This document shows positions 15,415 to 64,000 of a stretch of DNA of 64,000 nt, piece after piece. This DNA comes from a virus. The stretch's first letter is position 1; each line of letters begins with the position of its first letter. The stretch lies in IMG/VR virus record IMGVR_UViG_3300036937_000041, positions 26,369-90,368 of that record; one strand, written 5' to 3'. The notes below the pieces were generated by a model, which had not been told where the DNA came from, searched no databases, and worked only from the letters and a program-made list of their open reading frames with translations. The position numbers were made by a program, and so were the translations under genes.

Positions 15415-15724
15415 CTTTTTCCTCAAAACCGTCGCAAGACTGAAGCCATACTGGGTCGAAGTTGACCGGCCAGATAAACCAACCACGTTTGACCCCAGTA
15501 GGATGGCCAACGATATTCAGCTTCTTTGCATTCTCAGATAAGCCGAGCCCGATCCTCCCCACACCGGCCAGAATACCGAACACCTGGGCCATTGGATTGT
15601 CGAGCAGGTCGGCGTTTATCGGGTGCTTACATTGACTGTGGGCATTGCCCGGCAGCGTACCACGATATTTACAGTTATAGCAGTTCGGCCGACTACTATC
15701 GTCCACGATCTTCCCCTCGATCAT
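15404..15724 (-). CDS. Cysteine-containing hypothetical protein
   Basis: A 106-aa protein with CYNCKYRG and a later CKH, a possible zinc site, and a Gly-rich middle (AGVGRIGLGLS). The ATG at 15724 lies inside the end of the lipoprotein gene without a clear ribosome binding site. Function unknown. Confidence 0.5.
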   Translation of the reverse strand: MIEGKIVDDSSRPNCYNCKYRGTLPGNAHSQCKHPINADLLDNPMAQVFGILAGVGRIGLGLSENAKKLNIVGHPTGVKRGWFIWPVNFDPVWLQSCDGFEEKDEQ

Positions 15725-16268
15725 ACGCCGACAGGTCAAACGTGTGTCCGTTCCCCTGACGGTCATGCCAGCAGAGGAGGATAGTCGTGTCACACCCACG
15801 GGCTGGCCGGGCGCCGGGGAGCAGCGTGTCCACGGAAAAGCTTACCCGACTGTACTTCCAAAGTTCGAGCGGGCTGCCGTCCAATATGTATTTAAGATCG
15901 TCGTAGTCCAACTTTCTGGAAAGCATGTCGGCAAATATGAGGGCCGTACTATCGGACACGCGATTCTGCTCTGTAGAAATGGAGTTGAACGCCAGGGCGG
16001 CCGCGTGATCGTCAACCAGATAATGCCGTTCATCCTCATGCAAGTAATAGAAGTCGTTGAAGCTCGTAGTCGCCCAGAACTTGACGGTATAGCAGATGTT
16101 CGCGGTCGCCAGCTCGTTGGGCACCGTCCACGAACAGTTGTAAAAGATGTCGATGGTCGACAGCGTATCGGCCGCCGCGTCCGACTGCGCTACTCTAATC
16201 GGATCTTGCTCGGCACATGAGATCATGGCCAAGCAGAACAGCCCGACGATTATCAACCGCAGTCGCAT
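15696..16268 (-). CDS. Putative lipoprotein
   Basis: A 190-aa protein. Residues 1-19 form a lipoprotein signal (MRLRLIIVGLFCLAMIS followed by C-A-E), predicting lipid attachment at the cysteine and an envelope location. The mature part is not recognised. A phage lipoprotein could act in superinfection exclusion, but that is inference. GGAGAGTAGGGT precedes the ATG. Confidence 0.65.
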   Translation of the reverse strand: MRLRLIIVGLFCLAMISCAEQDPIRVAQSDAAADTLSTIDIFYNCSWTVPNELATANICYTVKFWATTSFNDFYYLHEDERHYLVDDHAAALAFNSISTEQNRVSDSTALIFADMLSRKLDYDDLKYILDGSPLELWKYSRVSFSVDTLLPGARPARGCDTTILLCWHDRQGNGHTFDLSAYDRGEDRGR

Positions 16269-17762: not shown

Positions 17763-17969
17763 TTAGTCGACGATTATTTGATCGACCGGCGGATCTTGTT
17801 GGATGATCACCCGTAATATCGCCCCACAGTACCAACAAGGGCGATCGTGGGCCTCCGCGTCGGTCACCAGATGGTCCAGTGATATCTCCTGGCCCCGATG
17901 GCAATCAGGACATTCAAACGAGTAGAGAAAGCGCAGCTGGGCGGCCGATACGGTTATCTTGGCCATCAT
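17763..17969 (-). CDS. Zinc-ribbon protein
   Basis: A 68-aa protein with CPDCHRG and CWYCGAI. Starts at tandem ATGs overlapping the upstream TGA, with GGAGAACG before them. Possibly a partner of the adjacent zinc-finger regulator. Confidence 0.55.
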   Translation of the reverse strand: MMAKITVSAAQLRFLYSFECPDCHRGQEISLDHLVTDAEAHDRPCWYCGAILRVIIQQDPPVDQIIVD

Positions 17970-18340
17970 CGTTCTCCTTTTAGTTTGTTGGTCAGCGTGT
18001 TTCTGGATATATGAAGCCAGCGGGAGGCCGCCGACCTGCTCTTGAAATAGTCGACGGTGCGCACGATCATCCGATAGCCCACCAGGGACAGAAGTTGATT
18101 GTACTTGATGCCCTGGGCCATCGCCTGCTCAACCAGCTCATCGGCAAGCTGCTCCACGGTCTTGTCCACCCGGGGCCGCCGAGCCGGAGTGTAGGCCAGC
18201 GACTTATGGTGCCCGCGCCCACGATCATCGTCGGTCCGACGCCCATGGGCGGCCAGCGAATGGCGCTCCAGATCGTACTCGGTGGTAAACCCGTCAAGGT
18301 CACAAATAGGGCACTTATATGCTTGTAATTTCGATACCAT
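17966..18340 (-). CDS. C2H2 zinc-finger plus Fis-type HTH regulator
   Basis: A 124-aa protein. Residues 9-32 form a C2H2-like finger (CPICDLDGF...RHSLAAH). The C-terminal 25 residues (SRWLHISRNTLTNKLKG) match the Fis/NtrC-type helix-turn-helix. The combination suggests a phage DNA-binding regulator of this early/accessory region; its target is not known. The ATG at 18340 has no clear ribosome binding site; a TTG five codons upstream is possible. Confidence 0.65.
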   Translation of the reverse strand: MVSKLQAYKCPICDLDGFTTEYDLERHSLAAHGRRTDDDRGRGHHKSLAYTPARRPRVDKTVEQLADELVEQAMAQGIKYNQLLSLVGYRMIVRTVDYFKSRSAASRWLHISRNTLTNKLKGER

Positions 18341-18368
18341 TGAAATATTTCGCAATTTAATGACCGGG

Positions 18369-18950
18369 TTAAACGTTTCCCCGCAGAACAGCGGTCCACT
18401 GGTCTGCCATTGCCCGTGCTATACCGGGAAAGGTCTTTGACCTCAGTAATGATCTTTCTGGCGATGGAGCCATTTTAAACACTCTTTGCTCTCTGCCCGG
18501 GACAACGTTTGTCGGAATCAGCTTAGGAAGACCGCGCAGCCACAGACAGGTCGCCTTGGTCTCCCCGTGGCCGAACATCCATGGTTGAACAATCTGATTG
18601 GGCTTGCGCCATTTTGTTGACATAATACTGATAGGATTTTCAATCGCCACCCTCTCACACTTACAGTCGGCAAAGCACATAAAGAAGTCAATCGCATCCT
18701 GCTGTCGACCATCCGCCCGCTTTTCAGCAAACCAACGAGCACCACTAACACTCAAGTGTGTGCAGGGCGGAAACGCGATAATCATATCCCAGTGTTGATC
18801 CAATAGCGGTAGTACATCTTGCTGTAGATGCCACTCCGGGTGTCCGCCCGAACAGGGAAGTATATCACAACTATATGCTTCGATTCCCAAACGCCGAAAC
18901 TCAATGGTTACCGCCTGCGATTCCTCACAAGCGACTAATATCTTTTCCAC
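18369..18950 (-). CDS. Cytosine-C5-like DNA methyltransferase (phage type), GTG start
   Basis: A 193-aa protein. The N-terminus EKILVACEESQAVTIEFRRL resembles the AdoMet-binding start of C5-methylases. PPCTHLSVSGARWF carries the Pro-Cys catalytic motif, and IENPIS fits the following ENV-like motif. It is shorter than typical C5 methylases and lacks a clear large recognition domain. It may modify phage DNA against restriction. GTG at 18950 gives the best match to the family start. Confidence 0.7.
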   Translation of the reverse strand: MEKILVACEESQAVTIEFRRLGIEAYSCDILPCSGGHPEWHLQQDVLPLLDQHWDMIIAFPPCTHLSVSGARWFAEKRADGRQQDAIDFFMCFADCKCERVAIENPISIMSTKWRKPNQIVQPWMFGHGETKATCLWLRGLPKLIPTNVVPGREQRVFKMAPSPERSLLRSKTFPGIARAMADQWTAVLRGNV

Positions 18951-19189: not shown

Positions 19190-19888
19190 CTAAAGCAATC
19201 CTTTTACCGAGGTGCGGCGTCTGATCAGCTGTAGATAATCTGGATTAAGCTCGATAAGAACCCATCGTCTGCGCAGCTGCTCGGCCACCCGCCCGGTCGT
19301 CCCGCTCCCACCAAACGGGTCGAGAACAATGTGGCCCGCAGATGATGATTTCTCAATCGGGATGGCCGCGCTCGCTATCGGTTTTCTCGTCAGATGCACA
19401 TCGGTGTTTTCTCTTACAATATCCCAACAATTTGTAATCCTCTTCCCGTTCAGCAAATGTCTTCCCTTCGTCGCCCAGGCGATAAACTCCGTAATATTTC
19501 CATAGTCCCCTTCCAGATCACCAGATGTATGATTGTTCTTCCGAAGAACGATAAGCCTTTTTGGCGTAAATCCTACCGATTGATATTCTTTCCTAAAATC
19601 AGAAGCCCCATAGTCGTTACAACAAGAGTAGATGGCACCACCATCGGCGAGCACCCGAAATGACTGGACAAGAAATGGGGCCAGCCACTCAAACCCTGCG
19701 TCCCCGGCAATATAGTCATGGGAAACGGATCGCATATTAGACTTGTACATCATTCCATACGGCGGATCCGTGCACACCAGGTCGATCGAGCTGTCGGGGA
19801 TACCGCGCATGATCTCCAGACAATCCCCGTGGTAGATGACCCCCGAGTCATCTTGATAATATGGTTCAGGCAAGTTGCCCCGCGACAT
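19190..19888 (-). CDS. N6-adenine/N4-cytosine DNA methyltransferase, beta group
   Basis: A 232-aa amino-methyltransferase. Motif IV DPPYGMM near residue 42 comes before motif I DPFGGSGTTGRVA near 197, the order of beta-group enzymes. The early segment HGDCLEIMRGIPDSSIDLV is typical. No restriction partner is adjacent, so it is a solitary phage methylase. A second enzyme of the same group is at 33294-34079 and shares the start PYYQDDSG/PYHQDDSG, suggesting common descent. ATG at 19888 has AGAGAGGAC upstream. Confidence 0.88.
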   Translation of the reverse strand: MSRGNLPEPYYQDDSGVIYHGDCLEIMRGIPDSSIDLVCTDPPYGMMYKSNMRSVSHDYIAGDAGFEWLAPFLVQSFRVLADGGAIYSCCNDYGASDFRKEYQSVGFTPKRLIVLRKNNHTSGDLEGDYGNITEFIAWATKGRHLLNGKRITNCWDIVRENTDVHLTRKPIASAAIPIEKSSSAGHIVLDPFGGSGTTGRVAEQLRRRWVLIELNPDYLQLIRRRTSVKGLL

Positions 19889-20249
19889 ACCGATAGTCCT
19901 CTCTGTGCTGCACAAGCCAGGTCAGCACATCCATATCCTGATATTCTTTACACTTCTGTTCTACTTTAGAGTAATCCCATAGGTCTACGCCCCATGTTTT
20001 ATACTGGACGAGCGTCCGCCGCACATTATCCGGGATCTCCAGCGTGGGGCCGAGCACATGCGCGTCCAGCTTGGCCAGCTCGATAGTATGCGCATCTACC
20101 TCGGCCAACCTGGCGGCCAAGCTGGCCACCAAATCGGATGATATTAGTACATAATCGGGAAGCCCCTCGATAACCTGGACCAGCTGTGGGTCCACCACCG
20201 CGGCCGCGGCGGCCCGCAGCGCCCGGTCAAGCTCTTGTCTGGTCTTCAA
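19866..20249 (-). CDS. Hypothetical protein, probable TTG start
   Basis: A 127-aa helical protein (LKTRQELDRALRAAAAAVVD...). The frame opens upstream to a TTG at 20282; the TTG at 20249 gives a smaller overlap with the upstream gene. The true start is uncertain. Not recognised. Confidence 0.5.
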   Translation of the reverse strand: MKTRQELDRALRAAAAAVVDPQLVQVIEGLPDYVLISSDLVASLAARLAEVDAHTIELAKLDAHVLGPTLEIPDNVRRTLVQYKTWGVDLWDYSKVEQKCKEYQDMDVLTWLVQHREDYRYVAGQLA

Positions 20250-21132
20250 CCCGAGATCCCGGCAGCTTCGGCTGCCTGACAATCGTTCCCCGCTGATCTA
20301 CAGGCGCATCATCCTGGATGAGCATCTGCATACTCTTATTAATAGGGAAGTACACCCGGCGATGAAATTCGGCGACAACCTTGCTATACTGCGAGCGCGA
20401 TAGGGTTTCGCCCAACAGCTTGAACAATGAGCTGACAAACAGCTTGAGGCTCTGCGTGTCCAGCAACAGCCGCTCGGTCATAATCTGCTGCCGCGCGCGC
20501 TTCACCCGGGCGAGCGCCACCGTCGTATCCCGGATCTCCGCGGCCGCCACGTACTCCAGGTTGAGCAGATGCTTGAGCACCAGGTTAAGCGAATGAATCT
20601 CGATCTCCACGTCGCCCAACCGCGGGTCGTCGAGCACGTACGGCGCGATGTCAAACAGCTCCTTCATCTCCAGCGCGAGACCCTGAGCCGAATATCCGGC
20701 GAGCACGTTCAACGGGCTCCGCTGAGAGCGTATTTGCTCATGATATCTACAATACCCATAGCCCACATGGTTGGTCGCCCGACCGGCGGGCGCCAGACAC
20801 CTGAGCTTCAACCCCTGTTTGCTGCGCAACATCCCGCATATCCGTCGATCCCGTAGGTAAGGACGAGACCCGGGGATCAGCGGATCAAAGTCAGGGTTTT
20901 CCCGCAACGAATATATCTCGTGCTCGGACACTATCTCGCACAAGGTCGATAGATGGTCATGCTCATACGCGTTGATCGGCCTGTCCGACTGACTCAGCTC
21001 GTCCATAACCGTGTCCAGCAGCCGCGCCCTATCCGGGGGGCTCAGCATCGACCGACCGCGCTCCAGATCTCGCGCACGCTTTTGCTTTATCTGCGCGATC
21101 AACCGGTCCAGCTTAGTCTTGCGCTTGCTCAT
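20227..21132 (-). CDS. Hypothetical 301-aa protein with Cys/His site
   Basis: Basic helical N-terminus (KRKTKLDRLIAQIKQKRARD), a central Cys/His segment (RCLAPAGRATNHVGYGYC, then RYHEQ), and a long helical C-terminal half. The Cys/His pattern is reminiscent of some phage small-terminase-like and packaging proteins, but the match is weak. Function not assigned. Start coupled to the 40-aa gene. Confidence 0.55.
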   Translation of the reverse strand: MSKRKTKLDRLIAQIKQKRARDLERGRSMLSPPDRARLLDTVMDELSQSDRPINAYEHDHLSTLCEIVSEHEIYSLRENPDFDPLIPGSRPYLRDRRICGMLRSKQGLKLRCLAPAGRATNHVGYGYCRYHEQIRSQRSPLNVLAGYSAQGLALEMKELFDIAPYVLDDPRLGDVEIEIHSLNLVLKHLLNLEYVAAAEIRDTTVALARVKRARQQIMTERLLLDTQSLKLFVSSLFKLLGETLSRSQYSKVVAEFHRRVYFPINKSMQMLIQDDAPVDQRGTIVRQPKLPGSRVEDQTRA

Positions 21133-50949: not shown

Positions 50950-53775
50950 TCAACCTCCTGCGCCCGCTAATGATATTTCGCCGGTTTCAATCGCGTCCTT
51001 TATCGCCTTGACCGCGATATTGCCGATCGTAGTGGACGCTGTTTGGAGATCGGTATCGCCGACTATGACCGTGTTCCCCGAGATGGCAACGCTGGGCTGC
51101 ACGTACATATTTTGGATCCCCCGGGTGGTCGTGCCCCCACGAGTTTGGGCGGCCAGACTGGCGCTGTCCAGCGCCTCGTTGCCCGTCGGAACAGCGGTCT
51201 CCTTGGTAATCTTGTCGATGGTACGCTGCGCCGATGCTTCGACAAACGATGCGGCGGCGCCCGCGGCTATGGCGGCCGCGGTCAGCCCCGCGGCCTTGCC
51301 CCATTGTCCTTCTGCGGCGGCGGCTATGGCCTTGGCAGACCATTCTTTAGCCTTAAACTGAAGGATGCCCGCCACCTCATCGGCGGCCAGCTGAATGCCC
51401 ACGGTTTTCAGATATTTTTGTGTACTGATCTCCGCGGCCGCCCACTTGTTGGCCAGCGTCGACAGCGTGTTGTACGCGGTGCTGGCGACGATCACCCGAC
51501 GTTGCATCGCCTTGACAGACTCATTAACAGCGTTTTTATCATGATCTTTTTGAAGATTGGCAATGAGATCAAGTTTTTGCTGCGTGGTCAGCACCTCGTC
51601 GTTCAAAATCCCATTTTTAAGATCTTGATACTGTTGATCAAGCTGAATGCGCTGATTGATATAGTCCTCGGCGTTGGTCAGCCGTAGCCGCTGCCCGGCC
51701 TCATCGGTCTGGTTCTCAAGCTTGTTGATATTGACCTCAATATCATGCGCTTGCTGCCCGTAGTCGGCGATCTGGTTCAGACGGGTGTTCTGCACATCCT
51801 TTTCCATCGCGGCAACATTCTGGTCGATCAGGGCTATCTTGCCCGCAATATTTAGATCGCTGCGGTCAGCAATTTTGTCTATCTTCTGCTGCCAGCTTTT
51901 TCGGATGCCCGCGATCTCCCCATGAAATGCTGTCTCCATGTTGACCTGCGCCTGATCGGTCTGGCTGATCGTGTCCAGGCGGATCTTCTGCAGTTCGGCA
52001 AGATGCTCGGTATCCTGCTCATATTGGGAGAGCTCGCCGATGGCCGCCAGCGCTTTAACCTTCTCCTGTTTGGTCATCACCTCATCTTTGTCTATCTCAG
52101 CTTTCTTTGCCGCGTACTTGGCCATAATCTGGGTGATCTTCTGCTCGGTGTCAGACACTTCGTATACTTGTTGCCTATCGATCTCAGCCGATTGTTTGAC
52201 CATCGCAAGCTTCTCCAGCAGGGCTTTACCCACATCGCTTTCTGTCGGGGCCTTAAACTGGGATTTTTCTTCCGGAGATACTGGGGTGGGCAGCAGAGGA
52301 TTTGCCCCAAATTTCAATCCAAACAGTCCACTGCTAGTAAGAGCGGCCGGGGTCATCCCCGCTGGGGTTACAGACTTACCGGACATTTGAAGCACTGATT
52401 GGATAAGCGCAGCTCGATTAAGATCTTCTAGTTGTTTAGTGCGTATACGCGGGTCAACACCTAACTGGGATACGCCACCATATGATACTTTAGTGTTAAA
52501 CCCTGGGCCGGATGTTACAGGCGTGTACGGCTTCGGCTCATCAACAATATTATGGTACAAGCGATATGCTGCCCAACCAACTGCGGCGGCCGCTAGTACG
52601 CCGACGACTATGGGGATAATGGCCGCCACGCCACCGGCGGCCGCGGCGCCGCCTGCTGTGCCCCCCGCGGTAGCGGCCGTAGAGGAACCTAGGCCGACAG
52701 CGGCGCCGATCTTGGCCAGACTCAGCGCGGCGGTCAGCTTGCCAATTCCTGACATAACAATATAAAGATCACGAGCGAGCAGCAATGCCTTGGTCAGCAC
52801 CACGACTATCAACGCCGTTTTGACCGCCCCAGGATGTTCGACTAAAAACGTGGCGACTTTTTCAAACACGTTCCAGAGCTCGATGGCCACCTGTTTGGCC
52901 GTCTCCCATATTTTGGGCAGCCACTCTTTTGCCTTGTCATATGCCTGCTTAAACGCATCGGCAAACTGCCTGGCCCACTGCCTGAGCTTCCCAGAGTCAA
53001 TCAAGTTAGTCAGATAATCCTGTATCTTGGCCAGATCTGGTTGGATTATCGGAAACAATGCCTTGGCAAACTCGGCTTTGATCTGCGTCCACAAATCAGA
53101 TATGTTGGAGAGCAGTTGGGTGACCGACCCCAAGGTCTCGGCCATCATCCCCTGGAAATGTTTATCGGCGATGACCTTCTGCACCGCGCGGATCATCTGC
53201 AGATTGTTGGAGATAACCTGGCCCTGTTTGCTGAACACCACCCCATATTTTTCAAGATCTTGGTTGGTGATCAGCAACTGCCTGAGCTGCCGCATTCCCA
53301 GCCCGGTGAGCCCCGAGGCTATGCTCTGGATCGCCTGGACAACCTGCTCCAGTGGTTTCTGCGTCGCCGACGCTAGATCGCCCAGGTCGCGCAGCAGATT
53401 ATCTTTTGTGGGCGCCATGCCCACGGCCTTGAGCTTAATAAACGCGTTTGTAATCTCATCTATCTCGAACGGGGTATCCACGGCAAACTTTTTGATCCAC
53501 GCGAACGCACGTTCCCCCGCGGCCGCACTACCGTACAGCACTTTCAGCTGTATTCGAAATCGCTCAAACTGCATACCGGTGTCCAGTACCTGTTTTGCCA
53601 CATAGACAAGTCCGGCGCCCACCGCCGCGGCTCCGATCGACAAGTATTTAAACGCCTTGACCGCGGTACCGCGCAGGCGCCCAAACGCACTCTCGATATC
53701 CGAGACTGTTTTGCCCACCATTTTGGCGTCCATATCGACTATGATCGCGATCTTGCGCTTAAGCGTCTCGTTCAT
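50950..53775 (-). CDS. Tail tape measure protein
   Basis: A 941-aa protein that should set tail length and pass into the host during DNA entry. The N-terminus has the typical tape-measure layout (LSIGAAAVGAGLVYVAKQVL; FERFRIQLKVLYGSAAAGER). Two hydrophobic segments lie in the middle (TALIVVVLTKALLLARDLYI; AAIIPIVVGVLAAAAVGWAA). Long coiled coils (residues ~560-790) and an Ala-rich helical end follow. No peptidase motif is evident. The length would predict a tail of roughly 140 nm by the usual scaling. Confidence 0.92.
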   Translation of the reverse strand: MNETLKRKIAIIVDMDAKMVGKTVSDIESAFGRLRGTAVKAFKYLSIGAAAVGAGLVYVAKQVLDTGMQFERFRIQLKVLYGSAAAGERAFAWIKKFAVDTPFEIDEITNAFIKLKAVGMAPTKDNLLRDLGDLASATQKPLEQVVQAIQSIASGLTGLGMRQLRQLLITNQDLEKYGVVFSKQGQVISNNLQMIRAVQKVIADKHFQGMMAETLGSVTQLLSNISDLWTQIKAEFAKALFPIIQPDLAKIQDYLTNLIDSGKLRQWARQFADAFKQAYDKAKEWLPKIWETAKQVAIELWNVFEKVATFLVEHPGAVKTALIVVVLTKALLLARDLYIVMSGIGKLTAALSLAKIGAAVGLGSSTAATAGGTAGGAAAAGGVAAIIPIVVGVLAAAAVGWAAYRLYHNIVDEPKPYTPVTSGPGFNTKVSYGGVSQLGVDPRIRTKQLEDLNRAALIQSVLQMSGKSVTPAGMTPAALTSSGLFGLKFGANPLLPTPVSPEEKSQFKAPTESDVGKALLEKLAMVKQSAEIDRQQVYEVSDTEQKITQIMAKYAAKKAEIDKDEVMTKQEKVKALAAIGELSQYEQDTEHLAELQKIRLDTISQTDQAQVNMETAFHGEIAGIRKSWQQKIDKIADRSDLNIAGKIALIDQNVAAMEKDVQNTRLNQIADYGQQAHDIEVNINKLENQTDEAGQRLRLTNAEDYINQRIQLDQQYQDLKNGILNDEVLTTQQKLDLIANLQKDHDKNAVNESVKAMQRRVIVASTAYNTLSTLANKWAAAEISTQKYLKTVGIQLAADEVAGILQFKAKEWSAKAIAAAAEGQWGKAAGLTAAAIAAGAAASFVEASAQRTIDKITKETAVPTGNEALDSASLAAQTRGGTTTRGIQNMYVQPSVAISGNTVIVGDTDLQTASTTIGNIAVKAIKDAIETGEISLAGAGG

Positions 53776-54793: not shown

Positions 54794-55834
54794 TTATGCC
54801 GGTATGCTGAGTTCATTCGCGGAGACAACCGTAATATTCAGTACGTGGTTGGTTCCGTCCGACGCTCCTTCAAACGGCAGGTTTAGCAGATGTTCGGTTT
54901 CGGCCGCATCGACCTCCGCCCCGGTATAGTGGGTGTTGAACGAGAAGATGATCGCCGAGCCACTGTGAGTTCCGGTCAGCAGCAGATCGGCGCCCGACAC
55001 CCAGTTGTCAATCTGTGCGTTGTCACCCAGGGTGGTCGTGCTCATCGCCAACGAGAATGTTCCGGTGACCGACAGTCGGTGGAGGGTAAACCCGGTGGGC
55101 ACCAGACTGTTGTAGAACAGCGGGGTGGCCCCGTTGGTGATCGTGAAGTCAAAGGACTGCAGACGAGCGGTCGTGCCCCCCAGAGTCCACGCGTAGTCCA
55201 AGAATACGTGATCGGCGGTGTCCTCCGGGGTGAACACCGACGCGGCATGCACATAGTTGGTCCGGAACGACCGGCCGGTCAGCTCCGCCTTGGCGATCAG
55301 CCGTTCCCCCTGAGATCCCGATACTCCGAAGCTGGTGCAGATAGCGCCGGTGAGCACATGCCCGTAGCCGGTGACGCTCGCCGGATCACCGATGCTCCTC
55401 GAAACGTCTATCCACATCTCAGGATCGGGTTGCCCCTGGACATATGGAACATATACCTTTGTATATGAGGTGGTTCCCGACTCAGATGCTCCCTTTTGCA
55501 GCAAGCTCCACAAGAATATCTCCGCCTTTTCGGGGGTGAGCCCGAACGACCCCAGGGAGAGCATCGGCTGCTTTTTGGTCAGCGTCAGTTCTTGGCCGAT
55601 GGCCGCCGAGCCGGTGCGCACCTCCGACAGACCGGTCGTCTTCTCCGTGGTAACGATCTCGATCCCCGCGCTGATATTCGGATGATCGTCGAGGATCAGC
55701 CCACACTTTCCCGCACCCCCAGGGCCGTCGTTGGTCGCCGCGAACAGCCCGGTGGTCGCCGAATCTGGTGTGTCGATCGCGGTGGTTCGAAACGACATGG
55801 CATATGCATCTTCCCATTTTACTCTAGTGGGCAT
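54794..55834 (-). CDS. Major tail protein
   Basis: A 346-aa protein, predicted tail tube subunit. Beta-rich, with the order typical for phi-like tube proteins (GIEIVTTEKTTGLSEVRTGS near the start, SFDFTITNGATPLFYNSLVP late) and a C-terminal Ig-like portion. Position just upstream of the chaperones supports the call. Confidence 0.75.
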   Translation of the reverse strand: MPTRVKWEDAYAMSFRTTAIDTPDSATTGLFAATNDGPGGAGKCGLILDDHPNISAGIEIVTTEKTTGLSEVRTGSAAIGQELTLTKKQPMLSLGSFGLTPEKAEIFLWSLLQKGASESGTTSYTKVYVPYVQGQPDPEMWIDVSRSIGDPASVTGYGHVLTGAICTSFGVSGSQGERLIAKAELTGRSFRTNYVHAASVFTPEDTADHVFLDYAWTLGGTTARLQSFDFTITNGATPLFYNSLVPTGFTLHRLSVTGTFSLAMSTTTLGDNAQIDNWVSGADLLLTGTHSGSAIIFSFNTHYTGAEVDAAETEHLLNLPFEGASDGTNHVLNITVVSANELSIPA

Positions 55835-56060: not shown

Positions 56061-57101
56061 TCATCTATAATTTGTTTCCAATTTAACTCTAGATCGATAC
56101 TCCACGTTGATCGTCGACGCGAACAACATCCCACCCTCGTACGGAGCATACTCGATGGAATTGAGCGCAAATTCCTGGGCCATGCCGTCAACCATGTAGT
56201 TGGCTTCCAGCACGCTGACCAACCTGTCGGCGATCGCCAGGTTTTCTCTGATCAACGCTGCCTTTGGGTATCCGCGGGACACCACTTGGAAGATCATGGG
56301 CCGGGCGAGCACCGCGTATCCGTTTGATCGTTCTTCGACAACATGCTCATTCTGGGGGAGAATGGTTATCGCCGGGTATAAGATTTTAGTCTTGGCCGTC
56401 TTGACAATCCAGTCCTTGGCACCGATGTACTGAGCATCCTGCTCGACAAGGGTGAGCAACCGGTCGAAAAATTCATTATACCCGGCGTCTACTATCTTCG
56501 GACAATATGTGTGATCGGCCATCTGATGATATGAGGTGATGCTCACCTCCAGCGACGCACTGGAGTTAAACCCCTTGGATCGTCCGTCAACTGTTTCGTA
56601 TATATCCTCGGAGTCTATACGGGTCGCAAACGATTGAAGAGTGTTGTCCGCCGCATACAACTGTAGGTCGTATTTGGCCACCTGCTTTACATCATCCACT
56701 ATATCCAGGCAGAAAGATTTTGCTGTATTCAGATCAGTGTGCTTCGCCGAATATACATCGATGGACAGCCTGTAGGACACCCACTGAGTACCGTCGGATA
56801 GCCGGGCTAAAAATGTTTTGCTGAGCGGGAAGATCGTCAGCGCGGGCAACACCGACTCGGGGAAGACAAAGCCGATCGGCCAGCTTTTGATCCGGCGGAG
56901 CGCCCGGCTGCTGTTCTGTCGCGCGTAGTCGATCAGCGCTTTTTTGAGCGCGCGCATCAACCCCCAGGTCTCGGTTGAGGCAAGATCTCCGGGCAGGCGC
57001 ACGCGCTGCCCCGTACCGGTATATCCACCGGCGCCCAGTCCTTGCACCCGAGGTTCAATATGGCCAACGCCAGAATGTCGTCCGCGATCTAGCGGGGCCA
57101 T
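56061..57101 (-). CDS. Tail completion/sheath-position hypothetical protein
   Basis: A 346-aa protein upstream of the major tail protein. Residues 50-200 are beta-rich (GFVFPESVLPALTIFPLSKT; SASLEVSITSYHQMADHTYC). By position it could be a tail terminator or connector, but it is longer than usual ones. AAGGAGGAAGCTG precedes the ATG, which overlaps the preceding stop. Confidence 0.55.
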   Translation of the reverse strand: MAPLDRGRHSGVGHIEPRVQGLGAGGYTGTGQRVRLPGDLASTETWGLMRALKKALIDYARQNSSRALRRIKSWPIGFVFPESVLPALTIFPLSKTFLARLSDGTQWVSYRLSIDVYSAKHTDLNTAKSFCLDIVDDVKQVAKYDLQLYAADNTLQSFATRIDSEDIYETVDGRSKGFNSSASLEVSITSYHQMADHTYCPKIVDAGYNEFFDRLLTLVEQDAQYIGAKDWIVKTAKTKILYPAITILPQNEHVVEERSNGYAVLARPMIFQVVSRGYPKAALIRENLAIADRLVSVLEANYMVDGMAQEFALNSIEYAPYEGGMLFASTINVEYRSRVKLETNYR

Positions 57102-59758
57102 CAGCTTCCTCCTTGGGTAACCGTAGAATCAGGGGAGCTGCCCGCCGTTCCCCCAATATGTCGGTAGATAACCTGTCTGATCAACGTCGCTCCATTATAG
57201 ATCTTGAGCGTGTCAACATCTCCGCTGTAGGTGGTAACCGATCGGGCACCCACGGGCACGCCCAGGAAGATGCCCAGCGAGTCGAGTTCGCGCATGATCC
57301 CCGTCGTATCCGCTTTGAACACATTCTCATTGGTTCCGCTTATGAAGTAGGCATAGACTCCGGCGGGCAACGACCGCACTGAGTCGAGAACGATGTTCAG
57401 GCTATCCTGGGAGGCCAGCCCACTCACATCGGCCATAAAATTGTGCTTATTCACGTCGGCGATCGCCTGGACAACAGAATCGAGTTCGGCCTGATATTGG
57501 CCGAGAGAATCGGCGCACAGACCAATATTCGTATACAATTCGGATAAGAAGGACCCGCCTATTAGATCGCCGGATGTTCTGGCCAGCAGATAGTCGACTA
57601 TCTGGGTGGCGGTCGGCCGCTGGGCCAGCGTTGAATCTTTTACGCGAAACAGCGTGTCGCCCGCGCTGTTGGCCGGGTTGACGGTCACCGTCTCGGTCAA
57701 ACCCCTGGTCACCGGCTTAGCCCACGTTTTGGCCGCCACAGCCGCGTCCTCAAGGGCGGCCAACACCGAATCGCGTTGTCCTGCCGACCAGGTGGCGGTC
57801 GCCCCACCAGCGAGGTTGTTGCGCAACCACTGGCCCAGGCCGGAGGTGTCAACCCCCGATGTATCGATGTTCATCCACACGTTCGCTATATCGGCCCAGA
57901 AAGATGAATCGGCCGAGATGGATAGCAGTTCAGCGAACGTGCCCCCGCCTATGTTACCGGCGGTATCTCGGCCGATTGTTTTAGAGTATATCGATGCGGT
58001 GGCCGCCGCGGCCAGCAGCGAGTCAAACCGAGTATCGTAGACGTTTATAGAGTCGAGTACCCGCTGGAGATTGTGGTAGATGGTCGAAAAATATGTAGCG
58101 GTTCCACCCGTGTCCGACACTAGACGGCCAAACAGCGAGTCAAGGATATCGGGGATGGTCAGCCCGGAGGCCGCACCCTGGAATGAAAGGCTGTCCTTCT
58201 GCCGGGCTAGGGTGTCCCCCGCGCTATTGGCCGGGCTGGCGATCACCGGGTCGACAGTCGGATCCCATCCGTCAAGGTTGACCACCTCGCTCTGGAGGGC
58301 GAGCAGTGAGGTGCTGGCCCTGAACGTCGCTGAATCTTTTACGCGCGCTAGCGTATCACCATCTGAATTTATGGGCAGGATGGTCACCGGGGTCGCCATC
58401 GGGTCAAAGTTATTCATCGCGTCCAATGTTTGTAGGGTTCCCGCGATGGTAAACCCATCTTTATCGGTCAGGGCCTTGACCGAACTGCTACCCCACGCCT
58501 TTGTTCGAATAGCCGCGTCGGCCAGGGCGGCCAGCACCGAGTCACGCTGTCCCGAGGTCCACGTCGCAGTGGCACCGCCAGACAGGTTGTTGATCAGCCA
58601 CTGACCCAACCCCGAGCTGTCAACCCCACTGGTGTCTATGTTCATCCAAACATTTGCTATATCGGCCCAAAATGAACTGTCGGCCGCTATCGATAACAAG
58701 TCTGCGAATGTGCCGGGGCTCACACTCCCCGACGTATCGGCGCCCAACGTTTTGCTGAACACCGATGCAGCAGTAGCGGCGGCCAACAAAGAGTCAAAAC
58801 GAGGACCATACACATCTATCGAGTCAAGTACATGCCGTAGATTGTGATACAATTCCGCTAAATAGGTTCCGCTCACAGTATCCGAGGACAGCCGGTTAAA
58901 GAATGTATCGATGATAGCGGTCGCAGACTCTCCGGTACCGCCCACAGATGCATAGCGGAGTAGCTGTGCAAAATAAGAATCGGCGGTGGTATCCCCCGGC
59001 TGTACGTTCATCAACGAGTCGATCAACGCTTGAACATCGACCGTCGAATCGGCGAGCAGGACGGCCAGCGTGTCGTACACCTGGGCCAAGGTCAGCCCAG
59101 ATGCGGCCCCCTGATAGTGCAGAGAATCTTGGAGCACGGAATCGCGGGCCAGCCCGGCTATCTGTGCCTTCGCCGCGTCCGATACCGCTCTTTGTATAGA
59201 GTCGAGTACCGTTTGATACGCATATAGAGAGTCGAGGACTCGACTTAAAGAGTCTCTGAGTCCAGCATATTTCTCATCAACTGTATACATCGAATCCCGG
59301 CTCTCGATAATACTCGCCATATATACATTAAAATCGGCGCCGGTGAGCAGCTGAAACTCGCCGCTGAACGGCGTGGCCAACCGGTGTCCGCGGCTGTCCA
59401 CAGCTGTGTCGAGGACGATCAACGAGTAGGAGTAGACTCCCTGCACCCCGGATCCATCTATGTCGGCCACCGCAGATCGCCAAACATACTGGGAATCAGC
59501 CGAATAAGCCTGGACGATGATCTGCGAACCATCGTAGGCCGAGCTGTCTGTGTACGCGATTGTTCCCGATGGGTAGAACACGATCAGAAAAATCGAATCG
59601 ACGTCGGCCAGCGGCTCGACATTACCGGCCACGTTCAGCTTGTAGAAGGGGATACTCAGACTGTCGGCGGGCAGACTGCCGCTGTTGTTCACCACCCCGT
59701 AGGCGCCAGCGGACGTGGCCAGCAGTAGTATGCTGATCAGCAAAATAATGTATTTCAT
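57101..59758 (-). CDS. Large exported protein with internal duplication
   Basis: An 885-aa protein with a Sec signal peptide (MKYIILLISILLLATSAGA, cleavage before YG). The body is rich in Asp, Ser, Leu and Thr with many DSL/LDS turns. A unit of ~100 residues (RFDSLLAAATAAS...ADSSFWADIANVWMNIDTSG...GQWL...GGATATW...GQRDSVLAAL) occurs twice, about 280 residues apart. It was probably built by duplication. A signal peptide is unusual inside a tail gene cluster; the protein may act on the host surface. ATGA overlap with the previous gene. Confidence 0.7.
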   Translation of the reverse strand: MKYIILLISILLLATSAGAYGVVNNSGSLPADSLSIPFYKLNVAGNVEPLADVDSIFLIVFYPSGTIAYTDSSAYDGSQIIVQAYSADSQYVWRSAVADIDGSGVQGVYSYSLIVLDTAVDSRGHRLATPFSGEFQLLTGADFNVYMASIIESRDSMYTVDEKYAGLRDSLSRVLDSLYAYQTVLDSIQRAVSDAAKAQIAGLARDSVLQDSLHYQGAASGLTLAQVYDTLAVLLADSTVDVQALIDSLMNVQPGDTTADSYFAQLLRYASVGGTGESATAIIDTFFNRLSSDTVSGTYLAELYHNLRHVLDSIDVYGPRFDSLLAAATAASVFSKTLGADTSGSVSPGTFADLLSIAADSSFWADIANVWMNIDTSGVDSSGLGQWLINNLSGGATATWTSGQRDSVLAALADAAIRTKAWGSSSVKALTDKDGFTIAGTLQTLDAMNNFDPMATPVTILPINSDGDTLARVKDSATFRASTSLLALQSEVVNLDGWDPTVDPVIASPANSAGDTLARQKDSLSFQGAASGLTIPDILDSLFGRLVSDTGGTATYFSTIYHNLQRVLDSINVYDTRFDSLLAAAATASIYSKTIGRDTAGNIGGGTFAELLSISADSSFWADIANVWMNIDTSGVDTSGLGQWLRNNLAGGATATWSAGQRDSVLAALEDAAVAAKTWAKPVTRGLTETVTVNPANSAGDTLFRVKDSTLAQRPTATQIVDYLLARTSGDLIGGSFLSELYTNIGLCADSLGQYQAELDSVVQAIADVNKHNFMADVSGLASQDSLNIVLDSVRSLPAGVYAYFISGTNENVFKADTTGIMRELDSLGIFLGVPVGARSVTTYSGDVDTLKIYNGATLIRQVIYRHIGGTAGSSPDSTVTQGGS

Positions 59759-61845
59759 TTCTTTATCCCTTTCAATTTATGTCGCTGAGGCCCGGGCGCC
59801 GCGGTAGCCTGGGTAGTAAACTCAAGCACAGTATTGGCCGTGTCGGTCATCGTACTGTCTTCAAATATCGTCCGTAGATAGTATGTGGTCGAGGGGAGAA
59901 GACCGGACAGGGTGTGCGTCTGGGGATCCCCGGGGCTGGCCACCGAATCATATCGGACCGTAGGGGGATTGTCGGTGTCCAACAGGTACCAAACGTAGAC
60001 GAGTGGGCCTTCCGCGTAGCTGATCGAGCTGCTGACCGCCGCTGTATCCTGGCCGACGGCCAGCGTGTCATCGACTGGGTCAAGCGAATCGTATGCGGTG
60101 AACGATACGACAGCACTCGTGTCATAGGTTGGGTATTGATCGATTGCGATAGTCTGAATGTAATAGGTGTAGCCGGGGACGAGCCCGGAGAATGCGCTCG
60201 CCTGCGGGTTAGCCGGATCGTATATGGTGTCCACCGGGGTGACCGGCGGGTTTGAACCGTCAATGTGAAAAATCAGGCTGTCGACCGCTGTATAGATATT
60301 TGAGAACGAAGAGGATAGATCGACGGTGTATCGTGTGTGACTGACAATGCTTGTAACATGAGAAAAAGTCGTATCCGGTTCACCGATAGCCCCGATATAT
60401 GACGATCCGAGTCCGTCTACTGTTGTCCCGCCCGTCCTAATGAACGCGGGGGTCGAGTCGGTCCAGCTAAAATCTCCATTGGCCGGATCGGTCAAGTTGG
60501 GATCGATATACTGAGAATTGGCATCCTGCGACGACGCACTTTGCCAAGCGGCCAGATTTTTCAACCCCGACCAGTTCCCAACATGACTTGATGATCCATA
60601 AAAGCAGTTGTTGTCTAAAACACTATTGGACGTGTTGAAATACGAAGTGTTCCCGATGTCCATATAGGCTCCGGATGGCGTTCCCATCCAGATGTTGTTG
60701 AAAATGTACTGATTGTCGGACACGTTATCGGCGGCGGGTGGGTCTGGCGTGCCACCAGAGTTCATCGCGGCTGTCGAAATGACATAGCCACGATTCCCGA
60801 TGTCGTAGACCGTGTTGTTGAAGAAGTAGATCGTATCGACATTCCACGTATAGGAATATCCCTCCCCGGATTCTACTATCCCCTCATTTGGGTTGATAAA
60901 TATGTTGCCGTAGATAATATATTGGCCGCAGGTTACAAAACCTGAGTAATTGTAAGTCCCGCCGGTCGAATAAGTCCCTGTCCTGATGGCCCAAGCAGAA
61001 TGGCCGGTCACGGTGTCCTTAAACGTACAGTTTCGCAACGTGTCTTGATAGTTTAATGTTTTCCAACCGATCCAAGCGTACATTCCCCTGTCGTCATTGA
61101 TAAAGCAACTGTCCCAGCATGACTGCTGTGTTACATAGGAGTGCCACCCATCGAGATTATTCCCAGAGCCAACGGACATGGCCGTCCATGCGGAACCGCC
61201 CGAACTTGATTTCATTGGCCCAGCCGCCTCACAACTGACAAAGCGAATGTATCTTTGACCGCCGGAAAACATACCGAGGGTATAAGCTCCGGCGTTTGAA
61301 TCGCCACTTGTAGCGCAGGCCGATGACGATTTACAGTCGTGGAAGGTGATGTGCTGTGCGCGAGAGATCAACACTCCCTTATAACTATACGCAAATTCCA
61401 GATTATCGAAGGTGACGTAAGATAGGTCATAACCACAGAAGCAGGCGCATCGTAGGGTAGTCCCGGCGGTCAATACTACCGTACTGTCAAATCCGAGAAT
61501 AAGCGGGCGGCTACGACCGTTTGCGGGTAAGCCGATATAATATACGCGGTGGGACTCGTCAGCTCCGCTTGTCTGTGGAGCGAGTACGGCATAGGTGTGC
61601 GGTGTGTTCCCGTAATTACACATGAAATTGTCATTAGCATCTTCGCCCGTCAACCCGTACACCCCACCGTATATGTAGCAGGTGTCACCAGAACTAAGGC
61701 CCGTGCTCGCCTTATACATAGTCGCCCAAGCATTTGCAGAATCCTCTCCTGAATTACCATCGTTTCCTCCATTACGGACATAGTAGGTTGTCGCATTGGC
61801 GGTTACCGCAGATAGCAGAACGAGCATAAACAGGAGTTTCTTCAT
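59755..61845 (-). CDS. Exported right-handed beta-helix protein with FN3-like end
   Basis: A 696-aa protein. Sec signal peptide MKKLLFMLVLLSAVTANA, then TTYYVRNGGNDGNSGEDSAN, the usual opening of pectate-lyase-like parallel beta-helix proteins. Residues ~50-470 are beta-helix. Two fibronectin type III-like repeats follow (FSGLVPGYTYYIQTIAID; LSGLLPSTTYYLRTIFED). It ends HKLKGIKK. Possibly binds or cleaves surface polysaccharide. AGGTAATCCG precedes the ATG. Confidence 0.75.
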   Translation of the reverse strand: MKKLLFMLVLLSAVTANATTYYVRNGGNDGNSGEDSANAWATMYKASTGLSSGDTCYIYGGVYGLTGEDANDNFMCNYGNTPHTYAVLAPQTSGADESHRVYYIGLPANGRSRPLILGFDSTVVLTAGTTLRCACFCGYDLSYVTFDNLEFAYSYKGVLISRAQHITFHDCKSSSACATSGDSNAGAYTLGMFSGGQRYIRFVSCEAAGPMKSSSGGSAWTAMSVGSGNNLDGWHSYVTQQSCWDSCFINDDRGMYAWIGWKTLNYQDTLRNCTFKDTVTGHSAWAIRTGTYSTGGTYNYSGFVTCGQYIIYGNIFINPNEGIVESGEGYSYTWNVDTIYFFNNTVYDIGNRGYVISTAAMNSGGTPDPPAADNVSDNQYIFNNIWMGTPSGAYMDIGNTSYFNTSNSVLDNNCFYGSSSHVGNWSGLKNLAAWQSASSQDANSQYIDPNLTDPANGDFSWTDSTPAFIRTGGTTVDGLGSSYIGAIGEPDTTFSHVTSIVSHTRYTVDLSSSFSNIYTAVDSLIFHIDGSNPPVTPVDTIYDPANPQASAFSGLVPGYTYYIQTIAIDQYPTYDTSAVVSFTAYDSLDPVDDTLAVGQDTAAVSSSISYAEGPLVYVWYLLDTDNPPTVRYDSVASPGDPQTHTLSGLLPSTTYYLRTIFEDSTMTDTANTVLEFTTQATAAPGPQRHKLKGIKK

Positions 61846-61849
61846 CGGA

Positions 61850-62449
61850 TTACCTCTTCCGCAATATGACCTTCCGTCGCGCTCCCGAACCACCGAGCGA
61901 AGCCGCGTACACAAGATAACCTCGTGGCGTGTCGGCTACGCCATCTTTGGCAACCGGAGCAGGGGCAACGGCTTCCAATTCGCCAGCATCGGTGAACGTG
62001 CAGCGATAGGTATCGTTTGAAGTCAGCACTCCCAAATATCCCCCGGCCCCTGACGCAGCTCTAAGCTGAACGGCAAAATAATATGTAGTACCGCCAGTGA
62101 GCGTTAATGTCCCTCCGGCGGCGGCTTGCATTGCCACAAGTCGTAAGCTGGTGGAGCTTCCGCTTATCGCTACCATGCTTGAATATCCGAGGAGCGTTCC
62201 CACGGTGTCAAGCGTCGTCACCGTGTAAATCGCATAGTAGAACGTGTCCGTGGTGTAATTCGGATTGATGTAAAGGCCCATGCTGTCAATATCCTGATTC
62301 CCGGTCCCAGCCATCGTGAACTGCCAAGCAAACACCTGGTCTACGGACATGCTTCTCGAATTGTCTGCCGATGTCGAGAAGTCAAGATGATCCGCAAGGG
62401 CTGTCGAGGCGATCATCGCCAAGCCAACGCATATAAGCAATCGCTTCAT
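61850..62449 (-). CDS. Exported beta-sandwich-like protein
   Basis: A 199-aa protein with signal peptide MKRLLICVGLAMIASTALA and a beta-rich body (WQFTMAGTGNQDIDSMGLYI; GGTLTLTGGTTYYFAVQL) resembling a jelly roll. It ends in a basic tail (RRKVILRKR), like the next gene's KGIKK end. First of three consecutive exported proteins. Confidence 0.65.
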   Translation of the reverse strand: MKRLLICVGLAMIASTALADHLDFSTSADNSRSMSVDQVFAWQFTMAGTGNQDIDSMGLYINPNYTTDTFYYAIYTVTTLDTVGTLLGYSSMVAISGSSTSLRLVAMQAAAGGTLTLTGGTTYYFAVQLRAASGAGGYLGVLTSNDTYRCTFTDAGELEAVAPAPVAKDGVADTPRGYLVYAASLGGSGARRKVILRKR

Positions 62450-62868
62450 GGCCGGACCCCCGTTCCATATAGTTTGTCCAGTTGTTTGACCAGCTGTTCG
62501 AGCACCTGCGTGTTTTTTATCTGATTGGTATATATTAGATCGAGTTTCTCATCCCGCTTTTCCGCTTTTGATTCCTGTTCTGCCTGCTTTTCCTTGACCT
62601 GCCGGATGGTCGAGGCCGTAACCGCGACCTGCGTTTTGAGCTCCTTGCCCTCAGAGGTAGGGAAATACTTATTATCGCTGATCTGCCGTTCGTTGAGCAC
62701 CGCCGCATGAAGGTTGTCGTCCACCGCTTTGAGCACCGCCGCCTTGTCGCTGAAAAGAAGACTGGCCAACGCGAGTAAAAAACTAAGCCCGGTGAGCACC
62801 AGCATACCGATGCCGATCACTTTTGAGAACTCTATGCCGCCCCGTTCGGTTGTCCTGATGTGGTCCAT
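62446..62868 (-). CDS. TM plus coiled-coil protein, possible holin or spanin-like
   Basis: A 140-aa protein with one hydrophobic segment (VIGIGMLVLTGLSFLLALAS) and a long coiled coil (ASTIRQVKEKQAEQESKAEK...). Topology would suit a membrane-anchored lysis or scaffold component. No lysis enzyme is adjacent. ATGA overlap with the next gene. Confidence 0.55.
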   Translation of the reverse strand: MDHIRTTERGGIEFSKVIGIGMLVLTGLSFLLALASLLFSDKAAVLKAVDDNLHAAVLNERQISDNKYFPTSEGKELKTQVAVTASTIRQVKEKQAEQESKAEKRDEKLDLIYTNQIKNTQVLEQLVKQLDKLYGTGVRP

Positions 62869-62883
62869 GGTCGTTAACCCCTT

Positions 62884-63531
62884 CTAGTCTTTCATTCCTA
62901 AATTTTTCAAAAAGTAGTCACCGGCCATCTGGGCCATGCGATCTATGGTGCTCTTGGTCACGGTCATATGCGGTCGCGCGGGCAACTTCACCTGCTTTTT
63001 CAAGAAAAACAGAGGTTCAAGCTCACCATCCTTTTTACGGTAGAGAGATCCGCCGATAAAAAATGCATCCTCATAATCGCGGGGCCGACCGCGCACCCCC
63101 GGGTAGGGGAGGGCCAGAAACTGACCGTGCTTGGGCTTGATCGTGACCCCAAAATGATGTGCGGCAGATATTGCGGACGGCGTTCCGTAGGTCATGCTAA
63201 ACGGAGTGATCTCCCTGACCTTGCCCATCGAGGCGCGGAGCGCCCCGGTCTCCTGCAAGATGGCGCCCACCCGCTTGGTCGACGGCCGACCGGCCAACCG
63301 CGCTGCCGCGGTATAGTCCGATATGGGATGCCAGGCCGTCCGCATGTCCCCCGGAGCGGCGGTAAATATGTCGGGGGGCGCCGACTGTAGCCTGAAGTTC
63401 AACATCACATCCTGGTTGACCACCCCGTAGTACCGGGTCATCAACGTCGAACAGTTGATCCCCCGCTGACGCATTTCCTTCAGCGTGTTCATCAGCTCCC
63501 GGTCGTCTACTCTTACACTAGCGGCCGCCAT
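62884..63531 (-). CDS. Phage virion morphogenesis protein (Mu gpG/tail-completion type)
   Basis: A 215-aa protein. RVDDRELMNTLKEMRQRGIN, VGAILQETGALRAS, GTPSAISAAHHFGV and PARPHMTV form the pattern of the phage virion morphogenesis family, which acts at the head-tail joint. Starts coupled to the upstream connector gene. Confidence 0.75.
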   Translation of the reverse strand: MAAASVRVDDRELMNTLKEMRQRGINCSTLMTRYYGVVNQDVMLNFRLQSAPPDIFTAAPGDMRTAWHPISDYTAAARLAGRPSTKRVGAILQETGALRASMGKVREITPFSMTYGTPSAISAAHHFGVTIKPKHGQFLALPYPGVRGRPRDYEDAFFIGGSLYRKKDGELEPLFFLKKQVKLPARPHMTVTKSTIDRMAQMAGDYFLKNLGMKD

Positions 63532-64000
63532 TATATGTCCATCGGATTAGAGTCATCTGGATAGTCTCCATATACAGTTACATCCCGACCATGACGATCT
63601 ACCGAGTACTCAACCGCCTCATACGGATCATCATCTTCTGCATCGGGCAGGCTGGTCAACGACACCTGCGATTTCGGGTCGACTAGCTTGGCCAGCAGGT
63701 CCATCGCCTGTTTGCGCAACGACCGTGCCCACCCCGCCTCATCCGACTCCGAGTTAGTGTACAGCGAGTTGATTAACGTCGAGGCGGCGAGCTGGGCGCT
63801 GATCACCCTGAGCTGTCGGCGAACAATATAGGTCCCGAAATACACTTCGTCGCCAATGGACGCACCGGCCCCAGGAAGATCCCAGTCCTCTGCTTTTATC
63901 TGGATGTCGCTGTTTGTCGACGTAAAATCAGCGGCGGTGCTCCCGCTCCCCTGTGCCCCGCTAATCTGCGCAACAACATCGTAGGCGGTCGCGCTCGTAA
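63531..64000 (-). CDS. Head-tail connector-like protein (partial, runs off right edge)
   Basis: The frame is open from the window edge for 155 codons and ends MDI. It begins beyond the window. The N-terminal visible part (YDVVAQISGAQGSGSTAADF) and the helical SAQLAASTLINSLYTNSESD fit DUF1320/gp36-like connector proteins, which often precede the morphogenesis gene. A GTG at 63845 is internal, not the true start. Confidence 0.6.
   Translation of the reverse strand, partial: TSATAYDVVAQISGAQGSGSTAADFTSTNSDIQIKAEDWDLPGAGASIGDEVYFGTYIVRRQLRVISAQLAASTLINSLYTNSESDEAGWARSLRKQAMDLLAKLVDPKSQVSLTSLPDAEDDDPYEAVEYSVDRHGRDVTVYGDYPDDSNPMDI

Follow-up and report, generated by a model that had tools for sequence, protein, structure and literature searches.

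Three consecutive genes with predicted Sec signal peptides lie between the tail-completion and tail tube genes of an IMG/VR virus record

The window analysed here is a stretch of 64,000 nucleotides from the IMG/VR virus record IMGVR_UViG_3300036937_000041 and corresponds to bases 26369-90368 of a record of 90,368 bases. Coordinates without a prefix are those of the window, coordinates prefixed L002 are those of the full record, and genes of the window are named by their lower coordinate. Three consecutive minus-strand genes in the tail operon, referred to below as the block, code for proteins that begin with an n-h-c signal peptide ending in A-x-A (lengths in amino acids, aa):

61850..62449, minus strand: 199-aa Sec-type protein, signal peptide 1-19 (A-L-A, then D), score 14.7
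59755..61845, minus strand: 696-aa Sec-type protein, signal peptide 1-18 (A-N-A, then T), score 14.8
57101..59758, minus strand: 885-aa Sec-type protein, signal peptide 1-19 (A-G-A, then Y), score 15.3

All three signal peptides are complete, with a short basic n-region, an h-region of 11-15 residues and an A-x-A site, and read MKRLLICVGLAMIASTALA followed by DHLD in 61850, MKKLLFMLVLLSAVTANA followed by TTYYV in 59755 and MKYIILLISILLLATSAGA followed by YGVV in 57101. By rule, each protein has the sequence features of a substrate of Sec and signal peptidase I, that is a positive n-region, a hydrophobic h-region and A-x-A in a peptide that begins at the true start codon. The calls were made with a rule-based scorer of the n-, h- and c-regions and the A-x-A site at a threshold of 13, which gave false calls at 1 of 396 internal Met positions; the block proteins score 14.7-15.3. 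As it passed only three of seven known E. coli signal peptides (OmpA, LamB and DsbA, with MalE, OmpF, PhoA and Bla failing), its counts are conservative and the tool is crude. Purine-rich, ribosome-binding-like sequences precede all three starts (GGGGG, GGAAGAGG and GAAAGGGA), and no in-frame start was seen immediately after the cleavage sites of the three genes. Chance or a misplaced start codon was rejected as the source of the signal peptides. Of the 26 structural genes here, 5 encode a signal peptide at this threshold, whereas among the 90 distant relatives the count is 14 of 1,275 tail-region genes (Fisher p=2e-5). The scores, start context and enrichment confirm the three consecutive signal peptide genes that the initial annotation had placed in the tail operon. 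Its coordinates were correct overall, except that gene 59755 starts at the ATG at 61845, giving 696 aa, and not at the upstream TTG at 61914, and its statement that each gene is ATGA-coupled holds for two starts, with 4-base overlaps at 62446/62449 and 59755/59758, whereas the start at 61845 lies 4 bases past the preceding stop. Disulphide enrichment was also considered as a sign of export and is not persuasive, with a cysteine content of 1.0% in the signal peptide proteins versus 0.7% in the other structural proteins.

The body of the 696-aa protein is beta-helix-like, starts with TTYYVRNGGND and ends with the basic tail QRHKLKGIKK, and two FN3-like repeats near residues 494-690 give weak matches to FN3 chains. 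Residues ~5-70 of this protein, including the signal peptide and the junction, match secreted bacterial beta-helix proteins, which were found in 15 of 297 genomes, from one phylum. Among the ten bacterial relatives that were fetched (L150-L159), eight have, by rule, a signal peptide that is in register with that of 59755 and immediately precedes the YYV strand, and the remaining two have visible hydrophobic leaders. A signal peptide directly before a [T/D]YYV..GxD motif, by which these secreted bacterial proteins can be recognized, is likewise present in 59755. A weak match to the solved parallel beta-helix protein 9rx2 was also obtained (E=0.007), and an AlphaFold model calculated without an alignment had a pLDDT of 32. 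Scanning for the YYVRNGGND motif returned nothing in IMG/VR, and a longer form returned nothing in GTDB contigs. The 199-aa protein 61850 has a beta-rich body and a basic C-terminal tail, GARRKVILRKR, which by eye is similar to the tail of a LamG-like protein in L105; a jelly-roll-like fold had been proposed for it in the initial annotation, its AlphaFold model without alignment has a pLDDT of 34, and apart from one weak, broken match no relatives were found in IMG/VR, phages or Pfam/PHROGs.

The 885-aa protein 57101 contains an internal duplication (59% over 190 aa) and, at residue 430, the repeat LTDKDGFTIAGTLQTLDAMN, with a single copy reading LTDKDGFTIAGT-LQTLDAMN. Its residues 430-448 follow the pattern LTDKxG[FY]x[IL]xGT then TLDAL, and the flanks alone, which lie outside the search pattern, give p ~9e-5. 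This places 57101 in a repeat family (LTDKxGFxISGTxxTLDALND, LTDK repeat family) of at least 20 phage and prophage proteins, which was collected by a pattern search yielding 26 IMG/VR loci, 7 of them judged spurious, and 4 loci in genome contigs. Among the repeat relatives whose N-terminus is readable, none was called with confidence as having a signal peptide (scorer, cut 12); five relatives (L103, L112, L116, L120 and L123) were excluded from this count as their N-termini are cut or incomplete. The sole relative called, L118 (12.4, MGKSYNVVVTVVAGGVTA), owes its call to a start inside the gene; the product read from the longer start, MNRKLADTIVLDF, which is identical in L131, has no signal peptide. 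N-terminal homology of 57101 with the family was rejected, as profile comparison gave a probability of 0.4% and only the repeat is common. In L132, a prophage of the Deltaproteobacteria, the repeat protein is followed by a terminator-like gene, a PF18906 tail tube gene and a tape-measure gene, an order that is also found in the window. The 12 family members scanned had no PHROGs match at E<=0.001. LTDK-repeat phage-like genes were also seen in L130, a contig that had been assigned to a Methanosarcinales archaeon by binning and is possibly a mis-binned phage. Since 59755 matches secreted bacterial proteins and the repeat of 57101 belongs to a phage family, a host-type exoprotein and a phage fibre-type protein alike carry predicted export signals here.

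The resemblance of 59755 to host secreted proteins, together with a codon usage that is the most atypical of 56 genes for 61850 and the third most atypical for 59755, would fit a classical moron cassette, that is recently captured host exoprotein genes with a role limited to lysogenic or lytic conversion, comparable to Lom, Bor or Llp; in phage lambda, Lom and Bor are exported proteins of the late region. We regard this explanation as unlikely, since the genes are closely integrated in the structural operon, where neighbours overlap by 4 bases or 1 base, 57101 has a phage repeat and two more signal peptide genes lie elsewhere in the operon. A moron cassette, as suggested in the initial annotation, is also too narrow a description, because the signal peptide genes are distributed along the head-tail operon and 57101 belongs to a phage repeat family in which the other readable members have no confident signal peptide. 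No match to a known anti-phage defence or superinfection-exclusion family rose above noise in PADLOC, NCBIfam or PHROGs.

The block lies between virion morphogenesis and tail genes, as had been noted before, and is bounded by a tail-completion gene at 62884 and, further downstream, the tail tube gene at 54794. The features of the surrounding operon are as follows:

62884..63531, minus strand: tail-completion/Neck1 protein, upstream of the block (PF05069 5.5e-7, phrog_26 2e-12)
62446..62868, minus strand: 140-aa N-in transmembrane and coiled-coil protein, no family above cut-off
56061..57101, minus strand: 346-aa protein in the tail-terminator position, downstream of the block; identity assigned by position, no family match
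54794..55834, minus strand: tail tube protein (PF18906 1.5e-9)
50950..53775, minus strand: tape-measure protein (phrog_973 9.5e-35)
L002:9751-10890, minus strand: capsid gene (phrog_133/371)
1456-aa BNR_4 protein, minus strand (PF15892 2.8e-19)

The structural genes are on the minus strand throughout. Their order in the direction of transcription is portal and head genes, capsid, a 310-aa signal peptide protein, a holin-like protein, an unassigned gene, a 181-aa signal peptide protein, the 1456-aa BNR_4 protein, smaller genes and a gene split by the record ends, followed by 62884, 62446, 61850, 59755, 57101, 56061, the tail tube gene 54794, the tape-measure gene 50950 and the tail tip. Gene 56061 has AGGAGG upstream and overlaps gene 57101 by 1 base. 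A probable connector gene is split between the record's two ends (63531-63998 of the window and L002:1-332), with a small break in its reading frame, which suggests that the genome is circular or permuted; with this gene halved between the ends, the record is best read as a single late operon spanning the joined ends. A chimeric assembly as the source of the block is not supported, given the overlapping genes and the common operon. When the capsid and portal proteins were used as queries, no relatives were found, and a tail-tube match in L004 was judged spurious. The initial annotation had considered that the transmembrane and coiled-coil gene 62446 may belong to the block; only adjacency links the two.

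The initial annotation understated the situation: the block is not isolated, and two further signal peptide genes lie outside it in the same head-tail operon, L002:8742-9674 (310 aa) and L002:6510-7055 (181 aa). The former is located directly downstream of the capsid gene, and the C-terminus of its product looks decoration-protein-like by eye. The product of the latter ends with IAPQIAFAFDF and resembles an outer-membrane beta-barrel; the presence of such a barrel-like product in the operon suggests that the host is a diderm.

Comparable arrangements are also present in other phages and prophages, where genes and their neighbours were assigned mechanically except where a family match is cited. 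Two signal peptide proteins are found in the fibre cassette of G001 (44 kb), one with the fibre-like motif NADTLEGQNGSYYLD. The last tail gene of G002 codes for a 769-aa beta-helix protein (PF13229 1.1e-13) with a signal peptide, which is 30% identical to a Salmonella phage tail spike (E=3e-11). Relatives of it, in which the signal peptide is kept at ~40% identity, are encoded behind the same tail gene in L133 and L143. Across the three related phages L123, L133 and L143, a tailspike-like beta-helix protein with a signal peptide is the product of the last tail gene, with the same tail gene upstream, and the N-termini including the signal peptide are 39-41% identical. A signal peptide beta-helix protein is also encoded between the gpT and connector/neck genes of the Mu-like prophage L162 (PF10124 1e-72). 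Chromosomal relatives of the L123/L162 family have signal peptides as well and adjoin Wzz, ManC, phosphomannomutase, GDP-mannose dehydratase and DegT genes, whereas a relative in a phage-like setting (L136/L144) has none. The proteins of G002, L123, L133, L143 and L162 are counted as analogues of 59755, not as its homologues. Due to this recurrence, the view that a tail operon would not be expected to encode exported products was too strong, and the arrangement suggests that some phages send tailspike- or fibre-like proteins to the surface of the cell being infected. No description of signal peptide tailspikes in phages was found in the open-access literature.

From these computed features we infer, with slightly better than even confidence, that the block codes for Sec-exported, glycan-active late proteins, which mask or trim glycans on the surface of the cell under infection. 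The three proteins, a beta-helix protein with FN3 repeats, a repeat-fibre protein and a small beta protein, would be of the virion-adhesin type, with synthesis late in infection and functional Sec signal peptides. After export and cleavage they would act in the periplasm or at the infected cell's surface, where binding or trimming of glycans is the most likely activity. Masked or removed receptors would be expected to act against superinfection and against progeny trapping on debris, and release through exopolysaccharide might become easier. Real export is favoured because the signal peptides are kept despite divergence in tail-operon genes and are common to secreted bacterial proteins. An action on the host surface, which had been proposed in the initial annotation, gains support from the secreted bacterial relatives of 59755 and from the signal peptide tailspike relatives beside polysaccharide genes. 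If this reading is correct, virion adhesins and secreted host-modifying enzymes are not sharply separated, and the product of a tail-operon gene need not be part of the virion, which bears on the annotation of receptor-binding proteins in metagenomic phages. A phage would then also have a testable means of masking receptors, or of removing them, on the cell that it is leaving.

Several observations weigh against this reading. No catalytic site or ligand was identified in the block proteins, and no close relatives of any of the three were found in IMG/VR or INPHARED. The proteins look like virion adhesins and sit among virion genes. In addition, the major capsid proteins encoded at L008:5281-6363, L095:295-1392 and L028:3900-5252 bear hydrophobic leaders that resemble signal peptides, so that such an N-terminus is no proof of export; the leader of the winovirus family capsid is missing in the homologues of Porphyromonas and Elizabethkingia phages. 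The block proteins might therefore be ordinary virion parts, such as neck or tail fibres or a tailspike, whose hydrophobic N-termini are not export signals or, while assembly proceeds in the cytoplasm, serve as a propeptide or membrane tether. The capsid leaders of Flavobacterium winoviruses and L028 keep a virion location in play, and the placement of the block between the tail-completion and tail tube genes, the occurrence of the 57101 repeat family in structural-operon positions of other phages, the FN3 and beta-helix domains typical of virion adhesins, and the fact that the signal peptide tailspike of G002 is its only obvious tailspike also point in this direction. However, a clean A-x-A site ends all three h-regions, the confident relatives of the 57101 repeat family have no leader, the leader of 59755 is common to secreted bacterial proteins, and a Sec signal would take a protein away from the cytoplasmic assembly site, and we thus consider it rather improbable that these are ordinary virion parts. 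Exported proteins might also bind virions afterwards, in the periplasm or at lysis, resulting in virions decorated by a Sec-routed part. This would reconcile the fibre-type architecture and the operon position with the signal peptides, but no attachment domain was identified and we know of no precedent in tailed phages, which makes it very unlikely. More generally, it is conceivable, though less likely than not, that some tailed phages route fibre- or tailspike-type proteins via the host Sec system as a regular late step, either as receptor-stripping or masking decoys or as components that become attached to virions at lysis, outside the cytoplasm.

Exported phage proteins that act on the host envelope include Lom and Bor of lambda, Llp of T5 and Cor of phi80 and N15, some of whose genes are located inside tail regions. 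They are likewise products of phage genes, but they are small outer-membrane proteins or lipoproteins, whereas the window encodes three large adhesin-type proteins inside the neck-tail junction. The closest functional parallel of the glycan-directed export proposed here appears to be WceF of Pantoea stewartii, a Tat-exported enzyme with a tailspike fold, which acts on the cell's own exopolysaccharide (PMC7949094). WceF also combines a tailspike-type beta-helix with an export signal, and the chromosomal relatives of L123/L162 too adjoin polysaccharide genes; however, WceF is bacterial, Tat-exported and encoded within an exopolysaccharide cluster, and no sequence match between it and the window proteins was looked for or seen. 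The endolysin Lys44 of fOg44 is Sec-exported (PMC6116005) and, similarly, is made late by the phage, has a real signal peptide and is exported during infection, but it is a lysis enzyme and the window proteins are of the adhesin or fibre type. The LTDK repeat proteins share with 57101 the repeat and the location in structural operons, with L132 in the equal slot before the tail tube and tape-measure genes, and differ from it in having no confident signal peptide at readable N-termini and an N-terminal domain that cannot be aligned. Target proteins of diversity-generating retroelements in phages have been reported to be without the signal peptides that the bacterial ones have (PMC6199706), and signal peptides on phage adhesins are therefore not the rule.

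Further leaders were seen outside the genes discussed so far. Two small signal peptide proteins are encoded at L002:14221-14607 and L002:13789-14217, the former ending with a dockerin-like DVNQDGVVNGRDF motif (PF00404, below cut-off), and a 190-aa protein encoded at 15696-16268 of the window has a lipoprotein-like leader (LAMISC). Downstream of phage tail genes in L081, signal peptide proteins that are SGNH-hydrolase-like and kelch-like are encoded at 17779-18465 and 19465-20487, respectively.

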